A stretch of 55,978 bases of DNA from an uncultured Pirellulaceae bacterium. GTDB lineage: Bacteria > Planctomycetota > Planctomycetia > Pirellulales > Pirellulaceae. The stretch covers positions 1-55,978 of the forward strand of contig CALLUY010000035.1 in assembly GCA_938010615.1 (NCBI GenBank). Direction: 5' to 3'. The notes beneath the pieces were generated by a model. The model made no database searches, was not told the DNA's origin, and saw only the letters and a list, made by a program, of their open reading frames with translations. Positions 7,192 to 14,859 of the stretch are shown here, piece by piece; position 1 is the first letter of the stretch; each line of letters starts with the position of its first letter. Position numbers and translations under genes: made by a program.

Positions 7192-7255
7192 CTATTGCGC
7201 CGACGTCCTAAACCCGTCGGGTCCGCCAGAGATGGGGCGGCCTTCGCTTAAAGGC
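7192..7255. repeat. 64-bp direct repeat, right copy (3' end of the ExbD-like gene)
   Basis: This is the functional copy. It forms the stop codon and last residues (PLSEGRPISGGPDGFRTSAQ) of the gene at 7192-8253. The left copy is at 6224-6287. The layout (gene end, repeat, cargo, repeat) looks like an att-site pair in a gene 3' end, but no integrase gene is present. Confidence 0.9.
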
Positions 7256-8253
7256 CAGCTGGCCATCTGGAAGCCCCGCTCATGAAGCCAATCTTTTAGC
7301 TTTGAATACTCACCGTAGCTGTTTGGGTAAACCCAAACTGAAACGGTCGTTCGACGAGGCTCATGGCGTTTCAAGATGTTGGCAAACTGTGAACCGTCGT
7401 TGAGCGCTGCTTGCAAGGACTCGCCGCCGTTGGAATCAACGGGCTGAATTACAAACCGCTTGAAACGTACGACGCGAGAATTCGCTTGGCCCGTTTGGCT
7501 TGGCGGAACGATGCCTAACTCGTACTGAAGCCGAAATCCGTTGACCGGCCCGATGGTCTCGCGAGTCACGTCTGCCTGTTTGAGTTTTTCCGCTTTCAAA
7601 CGAATCTCAGATTTCATCTGCTCGACCAACTCGTCCATCGGAACGTAAGAAATCTTGCCGCCATCGAGGCGAAAGTGAATTTCGTTCGAGAATACGGTCT
7701 TGGCGATTGGATTCGGGTAGTGGTCAATCGTCTCGACCGTCGATTCAATGCGACTTGCTGATACAGCATTGATTTCTTTTTCGAGCGAATCCAGCTTCGA
7801 GACCAATTGGATCTTTTCCGACTGAAGTTGAAGCTGCTTTTGTTGCTTCTGGCTTAGTTGATTTTGAATATCTCGTTTCTTCTGATCGCGGAACGAGCGG
7901 ACAGCCTCAATCTGCACCAACATCGCGTGTCGTCGTGTGGCTAACTGTTGAGCCAATTGCTTTTCACGATTGGTTTGTAGTTCGAGCTTGGCTCGATCAT
8001 GCTTGAATTTGGTCGCCACCAATTCGTGCGTCGCCAGTTCAGACTTGAGTTCCGCTTGCTTTTGCTCAAACGCAAGTTTGTCCTCCGCGGCATTCGATTG
8101 CTCAACCGTTTCCGGCTGCGAATCGGATTCAGAGACAAAATTTGCGGTCGCTTGAGCGCCAACGATAACGACCAAAATGATCAGGACTCCAACCAGATTG
8201 GCAATGATATCCAAAAAGGAATCTTGGCCATCGTCGAGATTACGAAGACTCAT
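7192..8253 (-). CDS. ExbD/MotB-like single-pass membrane protein with long coiled coil
   Basis: The 353-residue product has an N-terminal membrane segment at about 16-36 preceded by FLD, so Asp15 sits where ExbD and MotB carry the proton-channel aspartate. A coiled coil (about 50-150, many Gln/Lys/Glu) and a C-terminal globular domain follow. It is the third gene of a tightly coupled operon and overlaps the upstream gene by 4 bp (ATGA). With the ExbB-like first gene it probably forms an ion-driven motor at the inner membrane, but the load (TonB-like import, wall or surface work) is unknown. The final 64 bp are duplicated at 6224-6287. Confidence 0.75.
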   Translation of the reverse strand: MSLRNLDDGQDSFLDIIANLVGVLIILVVIVGAQATANFVSESDSQPETVEQSNAAEDKLAFEQKQAELKSELATHELVATKFKHDRAKLELQTNREKQLAQQLATRRHAMLVQIEAVRSFRDQKKRDIQNQLSQKQQKQLQLQSEKIQLVSKLDSLEKEINAVSASRIESTVETIDHYPNPIAKTVFSNEIHFRLDGGKISYVPMDELVEQMKSEIRLKAEKLKQADVTRETIGPVNGFRLQYELGIVPPSQTGQANSRVVRFKRFVIQPVDSNGGESLQAALNDGSQFANILKRHEPRRTTVSVWVYPNSYGEYSKLKDWLHERGFQMASWPLSEGRPISGGPDGFRTSAQ

Positions 8254-9875
8254 CGCTGCACCTCTTCGACGCCGAGTCCGCTGCCGCTAAGCAATTTCTG
8301 GATCGTGTTGAACTGTTGTTTCCCGCCTGGTTGAATCGTCACGGCAAGGTTCGGTTTCCAAAACGCGTTGGATCCCGCGATGCCCCACGAATCGATCCGT
8401 TGCCAAATAATGTTGACCATTCGATCAATGGCTTGTGTTGGCTGGGCTCCGATTTGAATCGTGACCGAATCGCCCGCAACGTTCTTCAATGTCAATGAAT
8501 CGGCAGAACAAGTCAGACTGACCGGACGAACGTAGCCGGTGGCGCCACTGGTTTCTGTCGGCAGCGCCCAATTGGCTCCGCGGGCGGTGGCCATGCTACC
8601 TTGAGTTGGACTCGCTGAACCTCCGGCTTGGTCTCCAGATGATGCCACATCGCCTTTTGCATCGGCATGACCCTTTCCGAATGCATTTGCGACAGACGCC
8701 GATCCCGACTTCATGTTCGAAGCAATTTTTGAGTTGGCGTCATTCGATGAGTTGCCTTGATAGGCGACTTGTTGGCCCGGTTGTTGAGACGAGCCGCCTT
8801 CGCGCACAAAACCGCCATGTTGGGACGAGGCACGAAGTCCACCGCCTCTTCCCGTTGAACCAGCTTCGCCTGCGAATCCGTCACCGGACATGCCACGACG
8901 TGCTTTCGCCAACGCGCTCCTTCGGCGCATCAACGCGACTTGCGATTGTTTTGCTTTATCAATCGCGGAACGAATCTCATTTTCTAATTGTGGATCCGAA
9001 GAACCAAAGTCAAGATCCTTCTCTGAGGACACAAGCTCATAGCCAAACTCATCATCCCAGCTGACGAGTGATCTTCGAGCAAGCCCATACGACTGAGCGC
9101 CATCGGGTCGAATCACGAGCAACGGATACGGTCGCTGATTGTCTTTTGCGAGCTCATACTTTTGGTAGTAGTTCCGCACTGCCATCAGGGCCGCATCGAC
9201 AGGATTGCCGGCTCCAACGGGATGAAAAAAATCGTTCCTTGTCAGTGGAATGTTCCACGGCTGCAACACAAGTCCCTCGCTGTTGCATTCAATGAAGATT
9301 GGGATTCGTTTTGTGCCGCCGGCACCACGATAGGGCACGATCGCGAATTTTTTTTGCTCGACCGTGACAACGCTACTACGTTTGGCTGCGAGTCGCTCTT
9401 CAGCCTCGGCGATTTCTTCGCGAAGTTTCGTCACGGCGGATTCGTCGATTTCGGCTGTCACCGTTTTTCGATCCGAATCGAGCAGGTTCAATTCGGCAGC
9501 GAGCTGTTTTGCCTGTTCTTCGATTTCGACAAGCTCTTTTTCTAGGTGAGCCCGATACTCGCGGGCAGCGGCCAGTTTTCGCTGAGCTTCTGGTCGAATC
9601 GATTCGAAGCCCTCCGACGCGATGATGTTGATATCGACTTGGTTTTCAAGCTTCTCGATGATTGCTTGCCGCCGTTTTTTAGTTGCAAGTTCTGCGGCCT
9701 CTTTCGCGGCGGCATCTTCTTCGATCGAGGCTTGTTGCTGAGCTTGGCCGATGCTCGCAGATTTTGCGGCCAACACCAGCAAAACGATCAGTACTCCTAG
9801 TGTGCAGATCAACACTGCCAAGAAAGGGAACAGCGAAACGCCGGGCTGGACAGATTTTCGAAGTCGGCGCCTCAT
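8250..9875 (-). CDS. single-pass membrane protein of the ExbB/ExbD-like operon
   Basis: The 541-residue product has an Arg-rich N-terminus, one membrane segment (about 15-37) and a coiled coil (about 40-170). A compact domain with IPIFIECNSEGL (about 195-330) follows, then a Gly/Ser/Gln-rich linker (about 345-440) and a small C-terminal domain. The membrane segment lacks an acidic residue, so unlike its neighbour it probably does not carry protons. It overlaps both neighbours by 4 bp. The shape (short cytoplasmic tail, one helix, large periplasmic part) fits a MotB/ExbD-type partner in a hetero-complex. I do not recognise a named family. Confidence 0.65.
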   Translation of the reverse strand: MRRRLRKSVQPGVSLFPFLAVLICTLGVLIVLLVLAAKSASIGQAQQQASIEEDAAAKEAAELATKKRRQAIIEKLENQVDINIIASEGFESIRPEAQRKLAAAREYRAHLEKELVEIEEQAKQLAAELNLLDSDRKTVTAEIDESAVTKLREEIAEAEERLAAKRSSVVTVEQKKFAIVPYRGAGGTKRIPIFIECNSEGLVLQPWNIPLTRNDFFHPVGAGNPVDAALMAVRNYYQKYELAKDNQRPYPLLVIRPDGAQSYGLARRSLVSWDDEFGYELVSSEKDLDFGSSDPQLENEIRSAIDKAKQSQVALMRRRSALAKARRGMSGDGFAGEAGSTGRGGGLRASSQHGGFVREGGSSQQPGQQVAYQGNSSNDANSKIASNMKSGSASVANAFGKGHADAKGDVASSGDQAGGSASPTQGSMATARGANWALPTETSGATGYVRPVSLTCSADSLTLKNVAGDSVTIQIGAQPTQAIDRMVNIIWQRIDSWGIAGSNAFWKPNLAVTIQPGGKQQFNTIQKLLSGSGLGVEEVQR

Positions 9876-11770
9876 GCGGCTTTGCGATTTCCGTTCTTGG
9901 CCCTAGTTGATTCAGGGGCTTTCCCGATGCGGACCACAGGAACGTTTTTCGCCGTATCACCCTCGCCAGCCAATGCTCTGGCAACGCGCGCCGAATTGGA
10001 TTGGTTGACTTTTGGTTTTGGTCCCGACTGGGGAACAAAATTTGGGAGATCCCTTGGCGTGAGAATTGGTTGCGACCGTGGCTTTTCGTTCGGAGCCTCA
10101 ATCTGATCTTCATCGTAAATTCGGATCGAAGGCTCAGCCTTGTCGGCTGGAACCTCTGCAACAAATGTCTCGACAGGGTCTGTCTCGACAGGGTCCGTCA
10201 CGTCAGGGGCCGTCTCCTGTGACTCCACGGAAGATTGATTCGATGGGGCGACAAGTTCGACGCTGGATGTATCGAAAGCCGACACGATAACGGGCTCAGA
10301 TACCATTCCCGCTTCTTCGACTTTGCGAAGAAGTTCATTCAATACACGATGCGTCCGTGTTGTCGCCATCACGGCGTCTTGCTGATGTTTGAGTGCTGCA
10401 TCAAACGCTGTGGAATCTTCCAGCGATCCAACGATCTGCTGAACCGATTCGGTTTGCTTCGAAAGCGCCAACATATGCTTTTCCATCAGCCGAGCGTTCT
10501 CTGAAAGAGAAACTTGCCACTGAGTCCAACGCTGCGCGATTGAATCGTCAGCTCTGTCGATCGCTTCGCCGAGGTAGTGCGCCAACGCTGCAACGTTCTC
10601 ATCGAGCGATTCGGTCAGATTGCTCCGCACAATGTCGCTGGTCTGAGTCAGCGATGCCGTCCAAGCTTGTTCTGCCATTCGAATGCTGTCTCGCCAGATT
10701 TCAGTCTGGTTCGCAACCACGTTTTGAATTGCATCGACAACCTGTTGAGAATTAGCATGTGTTCCGCCAGCGGTCAGCTCATAGTGTCTGGCGACTTCGG
10801 ATCGTGCTCGCTGGTCCACAAGCCGTAGCAACTGCGACTCGAAACGTTCGATCAAAAACTGACCAAACATCATCGCCATCGAAAGTGTCAGCGCCAAAGC
10901 AGTCGTGTCGAATGCAATGTAAAGGTTGCCTCGCAAGCCATCCATCATGGCTTGAAAATCGTTGTCAGGGCCGATCGCAATCCCGCCCAAAGCTTGCGAA
11001 ATCCCGAGCACAGTTCCGAGGAAACCCAACATGGGAGTCGCCCAGATCAAAATTCGCACCAACGAGTAACGTTGTTGTTGCCGCTCGAGATCAATGTCAG
11101 AAAGGTATTTGAGTTCTTCTTCGACGTTCGCTGTGGAACCGGTTCGATAGATCGAATGAACCGCATTGACCAATCGTTCCCACAAATAGTGACTGTGAAG
11201 ACGGCTGGGCAAGTCCAACATGACTTGTCCATGATCGACTGCTATGTCTCGCAAGTCGGTCATGCCAGCTTCGGATTCGCTGCCGGAATTCGATTCCCCG
11301 AGCGTAATATCTCTCTCGGAAGAGAACTGTTGAATCAGGTTCCATCCGATCACCAGCAGTGACGACATTCCAATCAAGAACATCGCAACGGTAACTTTGG
11401 AAACCGGATGACCGGTTAGGTATCGCAGGACGGTGTCGTCCGCGATCACTTTGGTGTCCATCAGATACTGCAAGCCAAGGTACAGACTCAGCCCAAGACA
11501 GACTGGAACAACCAGCGATGGCAAGACAGCGAACCAACTTGGAATTCGTTTCACAATGATCCTGGAACTTCGTGAGTAAACAGGCGCAGCAGTTTCCGCG
11601 CTGTCGTTTTCTTCGGTGCATTCGAGTGATCCGAATGAGCGAATATTGGAGTTACAACCGAGAAAACCGAATTTCCTTACCTCTTCGGTCAATCCTGGCC
11701 AATCGGTACCGTTTGAAGAGATAGCCTCAGTATGTGACTGCGTTGGAACGATATACAAGGCATCGAGCAA
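9872..11770 (-). CDS. MotA/TolQ/ExbB-like proton-channel protein
   Basis: The 632-residue product has three membrane segments (about 80-105, 125-148, 240-265) and a fourth hydrophobic stretch near 285-310. The TolQ/ExbB hallmark reads PMLGFLGTVLGISQAL, followed by FDTTALALTLSMAMM. The C-terminal 250 residues are soluble and partly Pro/Glu-rich, an extension absent from ordinary ExbB. It is the first gene of a three-gene operon, with 4-bp overlap to the next. Only a TTG starts the open frame at 11770, so the true start may lie further in; the first 70 residues look unstructured. Confidence 0.82.
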   Translation of the reverse strand: MLDALYIVPTQSHTEAISSNGTDWPGLTEEVRKFGFLGCNSNIRSFGSLECTEENDSAETAAPVYSRSSRIIVKRIPSWFAVLPSLVVPVCLGLSLYLGLQYLMDTKVIADDTVLRYLTGHPVSKVTVAMFLIGMSSLLVIGWNLIQQFSSERDITLGESNSGSESEAGMTDLRDIAVDHGQVMLDLPSRLHSHYLWERLVNAVHSIYRTGSTANVEEELKYLSDIDLERQQQRYSLVRILIWATPMLGFLGTVLGISQALGGIAIGPDNDFQAMMDGLRGNLYIAFDTTALALTLSMAMMFGQFLIERFESQLLRLVDQRARSEVARHYELTAGGTHANSQQVVDAIQNVVANQTEIWRDSIRMAEQAWTASLTQTSDIVRSNLTESLDENVAALAHYLGEAIDRADDSIAQRWTQWQVSLSENARLMEKHMLALSKQTESVQQIVGSLEDSTAFDAALKHQQDAVMATTRTHRVLNELLRKVEEAGMVSEPVIVSAFDTSSVELVAPSNQSSVESQETAPDVTDPVETDPVETFVAEVPADKAEPSIRIYDEDQIEAPNEKPRSQPILTPRDLPNFVPQSGPKPKVNQSNSARVARALAGEGDTAKNVPVVRIGKAPESTRAKNGNRKAA

Positions 11771-12841: not shown

Positions 12842-12961
12842 AGCGACGTAGACAGCTTTCTGGTGGTCAGAATTCAATAGAGCAAATTGTTGCATCCCTC
12901 ACGCGAATGCCATACGTTGGAATATCAGACAGTTGATTGGGGTTCTTCAAAGGAGACTTTT

Positions 12962-14440
12962 GTGGGCAGATTCCAAATTCGATTGAGCTTGTCGCTGGTG
13001 TTAGTGATTGCCTTTTCTTCCCTTTCGCATGGATCCGCAATCAGGCAGGAAGAAGAAGTCGATCAGGAAGCGAACGACAGCATTCAGGAAGTTCTTACTT
13101 TCGAAGTCGTCGTCATCAACAGCGAGGGCGAACCGGTCAAGGATGCAGAAGTCACTCCGTGGGCGATTGGCAGCGCACAGGGCCACGGAGCGTGGAATGA
13201 AAAAGCTGCCGGAGGAGTCAAGGCTGAAGCCGTAATGACGGACTCCAGTGGCAAGGCAACCATTCGTTACCCCAAATTCAGCAACGTGGCCGAAGAAGTG
13301 CGATCGACAACCATTTCGGTAGCTGTCAAGCATCCGGAGTATCCCGTCGTCAATGACATTCACGTCGGCATGCCTGCGAAGAAACCGCACAAAGTCAAGC
13401 TGCCGACTGGATCAATGATCGAAGCGACTGTCTTGCTCGATGGCGAACCTGTTGTAGGTGACGAAATAAAAGCTAATTGGACGACCGGCGCATCGTGGAC
13501 GGAAGATTCTGGAGTTCAAATCGATCAAGATCAAAAAACGATTCGAACGACTCCGATTCCAAAGGGGATCGGCCAAGTCATGTTCGTTCGACTCGATGGC
13601 GATACGATCACGCACTTCAGCGCCATCGAAGACATTGAAATCGACGGCACAGAGAAACTCATCAAGAAGTCTGTAGAGTTGGTTCCCGCTGTAACCATTC
13701 GTGGCAAGTTGAGCGACGAAGTTCCTCGCCCAGTAATCAGTGGACGAGTGAAATTCCAAACCATCACTGATGGTCGCTCTTGGGATGAAATCAGCTGGTT
13801 CGATTGGGCTCAAATCGAAGAAGACGGGTCTTTTGTAATTGACGCTTGGCCGAAAGGTGAGCCCATGCAACTAACCGCCCTGTGCGATGGCTTCTGTGCA
13901 AAAAATGGCGAAAAGCCACCGATGGTCACTCCTGAACGTGCACGAGGTTCTTACATGAGAGCACAAGTTTTCCTTGAGCCAGAGAACTCTGAGATCACCG
14001 TCGAAATGGAACCAATGAGCTCTTGTCGAATTGAAGTTAATAATGCGTTTGGAAAAAAGCTCTCCGGTGTCACGGCTGGCGCCAACCCCAACATCGGATG
14101 GTGGAATGGAGGATCGCAGATTTACTGCTGGCCGCTCGTCGGCGGCGTCGAATTTTTGAAAACAGGCAAGTACAACAGAGATCGAAAAGACGGAATCCAC
14201 ACTCAGCCATTTAGCGGCAAGACGGATGAAGATGGATTTGTCACAATCCAGTTGCCAGCTCGCAAAACCAATCTCTGGATCGGGAACGAGCGGTATCAGC
14301 TAGCCGCGAAGGCAGGGCGACGAAGCCGGCGAATTGAAGTCGAACAAGCAAAATCAATGAGCCTTGAATTCGTTCTTCAACCCAAGGGGCTTGATGTCCT
14401 TGGTGACTGGGAAGACCTGTGTGGATTGGTGTTTGGCTGA
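12962..14440 (+). CDS. secreted protein with Ig/carboxypeptidase-regulatory-like domains; frame continues past UGA
   Basis: The reading frame gives 492 residues before an in-frame TGA at 14438-14440. I start it at GTG 12962 because AAGGAG lies 7-12 bases upstream and a signal peptide follows (about 1-28); the longer frame from 12887 would bury both. Repeated beta-rich segments such as VVVINSEGEPVKDAEVTP resemble carboxypeptidase-regulatory/Ig-like domains of secreted planctomycete proteins. The residues before the TGA are DLCGLVFG, and the same frame continues for 76 further codons to 14671. The full product would be 569 residues if the UGA is decoded. See the next entry for the recoding evidence. 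The function is unknown. Confidence 0.7.
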   Translation: MGRFQIRLSLSLVLVIAFSSLSHGSAIRQEEEVDQEANDSIQEVLTFEVVVINSEGEPVKDAEVTPWAIGSAQGHGAWNEKAAGGVKAEAVMTDSSGKATIRYPKFSNVAEEVRSTTISVAVKHPEYPVVNDIHVGMPAKKPHKVKLPTGSMIEATVLLDGEPVVGDEIKANWTTGASWTEDSGVQIDQDQKTIRTTPIPKGIGQVMFVRLDGDTITHFSAIEDIEIDGTEKLIKKSVELVPAVTIRGKLSDEVPRPVISGRVKFQTITDGRSWDEISWFDWAQIEEDGSFVIDAWPKGEPMQLTALCDGFCAKNGEKPPMVTPERARGSYMRAQVFLEPENSEITVEMEPMSSCRIEVNNAFGKKLSGVTAGANPNIGWWNGGSQIYCWPLVGGVEFLKTGKYNRDRKDGIHTQPFSGKTDEDGFVTIQLPARKTNLWIGNERYQLAAKAGRRSRRIEVEQAKSMSLEFVLQPKGLDVLGDWEDLCGLVFG

Positions 14441-14671
14441 ACGACTGAAAAATGTGCCTCGCTGGTCAGCGAGAATGAAGAGATTCGCAAAGTCGTCCTT
14501 GAGCTAAGAGAGAAATTTGGAGATGACGAAACTGCTGCTACCAACCCAACAATTTTGATTGCCGCCTATCAGCAACTAGCCGACGCCTGTCGGAAGTGTG
14601 GCGAAGATGAAGAAGCCCGCAAATACGACAATCGAGTGGAGCTGTTGAAGAAAAAGGTCAAGAAGCTTTGA
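14438..14671 (+). other. possible UGA recoding: in-frame extension with a SECIS-like hairpin
   Basis: After TGA (14438-14440) the same frame runs without a stop to TGA 14669-14671 and reads as a charged helical tail (TTEKCASLVSENEEIRKVV, later QQLADACRKCGEDEEARK). A 6-bp hairpin, CTCGCT (14458-14463) and AGCGAG (14468-14473), has the loop GGTC and lies 17 nt past the UGA; its loop starts 24 nt after the UGA. Bacterial SECIS elements carry a G in the first loop positions at about this distance, and the E. coli fdhF loop also contains GGUC. The alternative is a simple nonsense mutation (for example from Trp or Arg). Confidence 0.4.
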
Positions 14672-14821
14672 GTTACTTGCGGCTTTGAAGCTCGGCATAG
14701 TGACAACTGCTTCAAAGTTCGACAATTCGCGGAGAAACCGCTAGACCATTCATTCACTTTCGTTATCATACGTTGCTGTTTGAGACGCTCGAGCCCGGGC
14801 TGTTTCTGTTTGTATCCAGGT

Positions 14822-14859
14822 AACGCTGCTCAAGCGTTGCCATGCGAGCCAGTCGGCTC
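14822..14859 (+). promoter_or_regulatory. two small hairpins in the metK leader
   Basis: AACGCT (14822-14827) pairs with AGCGTT (14833-14838), and GAGCC (14846-14850) pairs with GGCTC (14855-14859). They lie 30-70 bases before the metK start. They could be part of a leader RNA, but I cannot match them to a known SAM or SAH riboswitch. Confidence 0.3.

Follow-up and report, generated by a model that had tools for sequence, protein, structure and literature searches.

A candidate selenocysteine codon in the gene for a predicted exported protein of an uncultured Pirellulaceae bacterium

The sequence analysed here, which we call the window, is the stretch of 55,978 nucleotides formed by positions 1-55,978 of the forward strand of contig CALLUY010000035.1, from assembly GCA_938010615.1 of an uncultured Pirellulaceae bacterium, and our subject is a gene in it that contains an in-frame UGA. 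The gene lies on the plus strand, as do all of its features given below, and starts with a GTG codon at position 12962, with a likely ribosome-binding site, AAAGGAG (12949..12955), read in the sequence 6 nt upstream. The frame is open as far as a TGA at 14438-14440, which is codon 493, and beyond it a further 76 codons remain open in frame (14441..14668) before another TGA at 14669-14671. When the UGA is read through and the second TGA is taken as the stop, the whole frame (12962..14671) encodes 569 residues. An earlier note on this DNA had proposed the UGA as a selenocysteine (Sec) codon followed by a hairpin resembling a selenocysteine insertion sequence (SECIS), and had remarked that the frame halts at this UGA yet runs on for 76 codons with coding character. 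This was borne out, the coding signal of the tail being equal to that of the body: codon-usage scores were 0.33 bits per codon in the tail and 0.28 in the body, against -0.33 and -0.43 in the tail's remaining forward frames, and 14672-14840 scored negative in each of its three frames. No ATG, GTG or TTG occurs in the tail until codon 39, which makes it hard to account for the tail as a separate gene.

A search among 5.8 billion proteins, with 7998 candidates scored, returned 50 matches, one of them the gene's own truncated product. Among the other 49, 28 stop at residue 492, exactly one residue before the UGA position, and the residues directly before this stop are nearly invariant in them. 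Sixteen homologues continuing past the site could be read by script, and 15 of these have Cys at residue 493 and one (P0049) has Ser. The remaining five fell outside the script motif: P0036 has Cys at 493 when read by eye, P0010 and P0027 are apparently frame-shifted, and P0050 and P0051 do not contain the motif. The alignment that the earlier note had suggested as a check accordingly gave Cys and a single Ser, and Trp or Arg in none of the homologues reading on beyond the site. A tree was built from 45 rows, leaving out P0001, P0010, P0027, P0036, P0050, P0051 and P0052, and in it a branch supported at 100/100 separates the protein and the 28 ending homologues from all other rows. The two groups also differ at residue 487: 27 of the ending homologues have Cys there and one has Tyr, while none of the 16 that continue has Cys, 12 having Ala, three Ser and one Lys.

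A search with the 76 tail residues only found P0052, a 76-residue open reading frame on a metagenome contig of 1281 bases. The alignment with the tail covers all 76 residues at 70% identity, has no gap and places the first residue of P0052 at the codon after the UGA; EKCASLVSE, the stretch spanning the hairpin, is identical in both. Positions are also shared between the tail and the tails of Cys-form homologues. A tail without translation should not, we infer from these alignments, have remained so similar to P0052.

At the DNA level, codon 493 was read wherever a locus had been fetched and the motif was present, the class and family searches being followed for their best matches only. Every one of the 30 genomes of relatives where the motif was readable has TGC or TGT. 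The class search supplied seven of them and the family search 20 (G233 being common to both), the others being G459 and three genomes of a second family. Three flagged matches proved not to be further UGA copies. One, a second match in G527, also has TGC; the match in G231, with one TGA, is without such a domain and ends before the site; and in locus L108 of G653, likewise with one TGA, codon 493 is TGC and the TGA is found 137 codons upstream. This TGA elsewhere in a Cys-form gene could be a sequence error, the mark of a pseudogene or a second recoding site. Indirect evidence at the DNA level comes from the apparently frame-shifted P0027. Back-translated, this homologue is consistent with the window DNA at 83 of 100 positions, against a mean of 46 (standard deviation 4.8) across all placements. 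It limits codon 493 to NGA, which excludes Cys, UAA and UAG there, and it fits each of the 16 hairpin bases, of which many are degenerate.

The proposed SECIS hairpin, CUCGCU-GGUC-AGCGAG, lies at 14458..14473, with its loop at 14464-14467. The geometry described in the earlier note is correct: a 6-bp stem with the loop GGUC, 17 nt 3' of the UGA, the loop beginning at the 24th base. The SECIS loop of Escherichia coli fdhF likewise contains GGUC. Section 5 of the review PMC13188914 sets limits for bacterial SECIS elements, and the 4-nt loop starting with GG, the 6-bp stem, the gap of 23 nt between UGA and loop and the energy of -8.6 kcal/mol are all inside the limits given in that section, so that the fit to the bacterial layout claimed in the note holds to that extent. 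A hairpin of at least six Watson-Crick pairs fitting the loop rule follows 1.65% of the 2179 TGAs of the window, and by itself the hairpin is only moderately unusual. A GGTC loop closed by five pairs or more follows one of the 2179, the gene's own, and three of 11142 TGAs in the loci of relatives and of the genome, all three being copies of this gene. When the first 16 codons of the tail were recoded synonymously 20000 times, 488 recodings retained such a hairpin and 107 a stricter apical form.

The genome of the window has AhpC/TSA matches at 21 places, eight of which, all outside the window, carry one in-frame TGA (L086, L089, L092, L093, L097, L098, L099 and L104). Six of the eight read as U-x-x-C (WUPFC, WUPYC twice, WUAGC, GUAFC and WUGAC) and two are without the second Cys; because of these eight, and of the six with U-x-x-C, the genome appears rich in selenoproteins. 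The hairpin of our gene carries the apex CU-GG...AG, and with at least five pairs this apex is found after the UGA in four of the eight when G-U pairs are allowed and in three with Watson-Crick pairs only, the remaining stem bases differing but still pairing. The same apex follows two of 2168 window TGAs outside 14301-14500 (one with Watson-Crick pairs only; Fisher p about 1e-9), six of 4178 TGAs at the genome's other loci (L103 among the six being the L086 hairpin again), and four of 8143 in the loci of relatives.

The sel genes, which the earlier note had suggested looking for, are all present in the genome over their cut-offs: selA at 552 bits, selB at 349.8, selD at 262.6, and selC, the tRNA-Sec with anticodon TCA, at 65.9. 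All 21 Cys-form genomes of the same family fall below the selA cut-off, although they represent six genera and not 21 independent cases. The selD match (L019, on contig C68) to a model of 311 positions sits in an open frame of 741 codons and is possibly a fusion.

From its sequence and a structure model (mean pLDDT 89.9), the protein is predicted to begin with a signal peptide of about residues 1-25 (12962..13036), its N-terminus being hydrophobic by reading and modelled as a helix at residues 2-22. Residues 42-477 (13085..14392), the span covered by the structure matches, would form an Ig-like or transthyretin-like beta-sandwich part; the DUF4198 score of 33.1 bits is slightly below the cut-off of 34. 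The predicted C-terminal helical domain, residues 480-569 (14399..14668), contains Cys487 (codon TGT, 14420..14422), the proposed Sec493 (14438..14440) and Cys498 (codon TGT, 14453..14455), a possible redox partner that is kept in P0052. The region around residue 493 is modelled as helices, the protein has no thioredoxin match in Pfam, and the structure matches of this domain are too weak for naming a fold, no thioredoxin fold being among those listed, which does not tell against one. The gene neighbours are UbiA-type and S-adenosylmethionine synthetase genes, with no clear operon link to our gene. Three closely packed genes lie on the minus strand at 7192-11770, the first of which in reading order has a MotA/TolQ/ExbB domain and the other two no Pfam match at 1e-4.

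We consider it highly probable that the UGA at 14438-14440 is a Sec codon and that the gene encodes a single predicted-exported protein of 569 residues, with Cys487, Sec493 and Cys498 in a helical domain that follows Ig-like domains at the C-terminus. SelB with charged tRNA-Sec would bind the GGUC hairpin, Sec would be inserted at the UGA in place of a ribosome stop, the protein would exit the cytoplasm by way of its predicted signal peptide, and the selenol, placed before a helix, would do redox work, partnered by Cys498 or Cys487. We infer these steps from the features described above, and hold the redox role of the C-terminal domain with moderate confidence. Perhaps the Cys/Sec cluster instead binds a metal such as copper, an alternative to thiol or selenol redox work that we regard as rather unlikely.

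Several observations weigh against a Sec codon or lessen the value of the evidence for it. A TGA at the site was found only in the window's own genome, and therefore the 28 ending homologues are known from protein sequence alone, which does not tell UGA from UAA or UAG as their stop. Protein searches of 397 class, 241 family and 43 second-family genomes gave no second UGA copy among the best matches, a pattern search with at most two mismatches in 396 order genomes returned only the window's own copy, and no further one was present in the genome contigs and viral contigs searched. The separate tail has one relative only, as a second search with a two-row profile again returned P0052 alone. Rfam gave no SECIS family match for the region or for the whole window. 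The 61-nt region is no stabler than its shuffles (z 0.71; 150 of 200 shuffles fold at least as well) and 415 of 4000 synonymous recodings fold with equal or greater stability, and low folding energy was accordingly rejected as SECIS evidence. The CU-GG...AG apex was picked after both sets of UGA sites had been seen. The genome is 84% complete, and selA is over its cut-off in 120 of the 241 family genomes, so common that its presence discriminates little. Outside the family it is over the cut-off in two of the six Cys-form genomes tested (G668, G653 and G683 being left out) and just under it in a third.

A rival reading is a true stop, in which the tail domain was lost through an ancestral nonsense mutation, Gly492 is the real C-terminus of the 28 homologues and the hairpin arose by chance. 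In its favour, the hairpin energy is ordinary, and the ending proteins form one clade that a single event could explain. However, the tail has retained its coding signal, its 70% identity to P0052 and the positions it has in common with the Cys-form tails, and the residues just upstream of the stop are close to fixed. The earlier note had allowed for a chance hairpin together with a simple nonsense mutation, which does not account for a clade with an end point shared to the residue plus a conserved separate tail, and we hold a true stop to be very unlikely. A conserved tail and a shared end point do not alone name the inserted residue, and the UGA might be read through by other means, for example by a near-cognate tRNA giving a minor extended form. 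Against this stand the Cys of the relatives, the full set of sel genes and a SECIS-like hairpin resembling those of other UGA genes of the genome, which make such read-through extremely improbable. Recoding to Trp and an assembly error were both rejected on the grounds that relatives carry Cys and that the end point recurs in 28 other proteins.

Read as a selenoprotein, the protein most likely belongs, to judge from its sequence, to an uncatalogued planctomycete family. Table 1 of PMC13188914, a review of 2026, is stated to cover 119 families and subfamilies, and the present family is absent from them as that table gives them; no NCBIfam model is over its cut-off for the protein. For two planctomycete genomes, the accessible part of PMC4807772 reports selenoproteins and names formate dehydrogenase and formylmethanofuran dehydrogenase subunits, and in that of PMC12013277 (deep-Sep) nine new families are reported, none resembling this one. 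No paper on the family was among the literature matches listed, which consisted of titles and abstract beginnings with most subscription journals outside the coverage. No fewer than 28 database entries are probably truncated at the Sec codon and so appear without the C-terminal domain. With this family, selenocysteine would gain a predicted exported and helical setting, and a natural set of Sec and Cys forms would become available for comparison.

Six relatives (P0028, P0029, P0034, P0037, P0039 and P0049) bear the module C-terminal to a PF05569 part, and one of the six is named M56 family metallopeptidase by its source. Four of the six share the end point at the site, and of the other two one has Cys there and the other Ser; the blaR1_generic scores of P0028 and P0037 are 70 and 46 bits, the cut-off being 400. 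The presence of the module on PF05569 membrane proteins suggests an extracytoplasmic redox or sensing role for it, and a link of selenium to signalling across the envelope. The four ending proteins with an M56-type membrane part (P0028, P0029, P0034 and P0039) are possible selenoprotein sensors. A bolder proposal, speculative and in our view improbable, is that the Sec domain is a selenium redox sensor of the planctomycete envelope, free here and fused to BlaR1/M56 parts in relatives, in which the selenol would be oxidised outside the membrane and proteolysis by the M56-type metallopeptidase would lead to a transcriptional response inside.

Compared with known systems, the gene resembles bacterial selenoproteins of the SECIS type in its in-frame UGA, the adjacent hairpin within the limits of the published section, its Cys homologues and the accompanying sel genes, and differs from the catalogued ones in that its family is not in the catalogue, as far as the table extends, and is known here from sequence alone. 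With the AhpC/TSA genes of its own genome it has in common the in-frame UGA and, for four of those eight, the CU-GG...AG apex; unlike these genes, which have thioredoxin-like matches, its Sec domain is predicted to be helical. The BlaR1/M56-type membrane proteins have the same C-terminal module attached to an M56 part, for which the present protein has no match in the Pfam search. The Cys-form homologues of Pirellulaceae-like and Lacipirellulaceae-like genomes (such as P0030, P0044 and L022 of Botrimarina hoheduenensis) are 31-37% identical to the protein and have the same Ig-like part and C-terminal domain, but with Cys for the UGA at 493 and Ala, Ser or Lys in place of Cys487.
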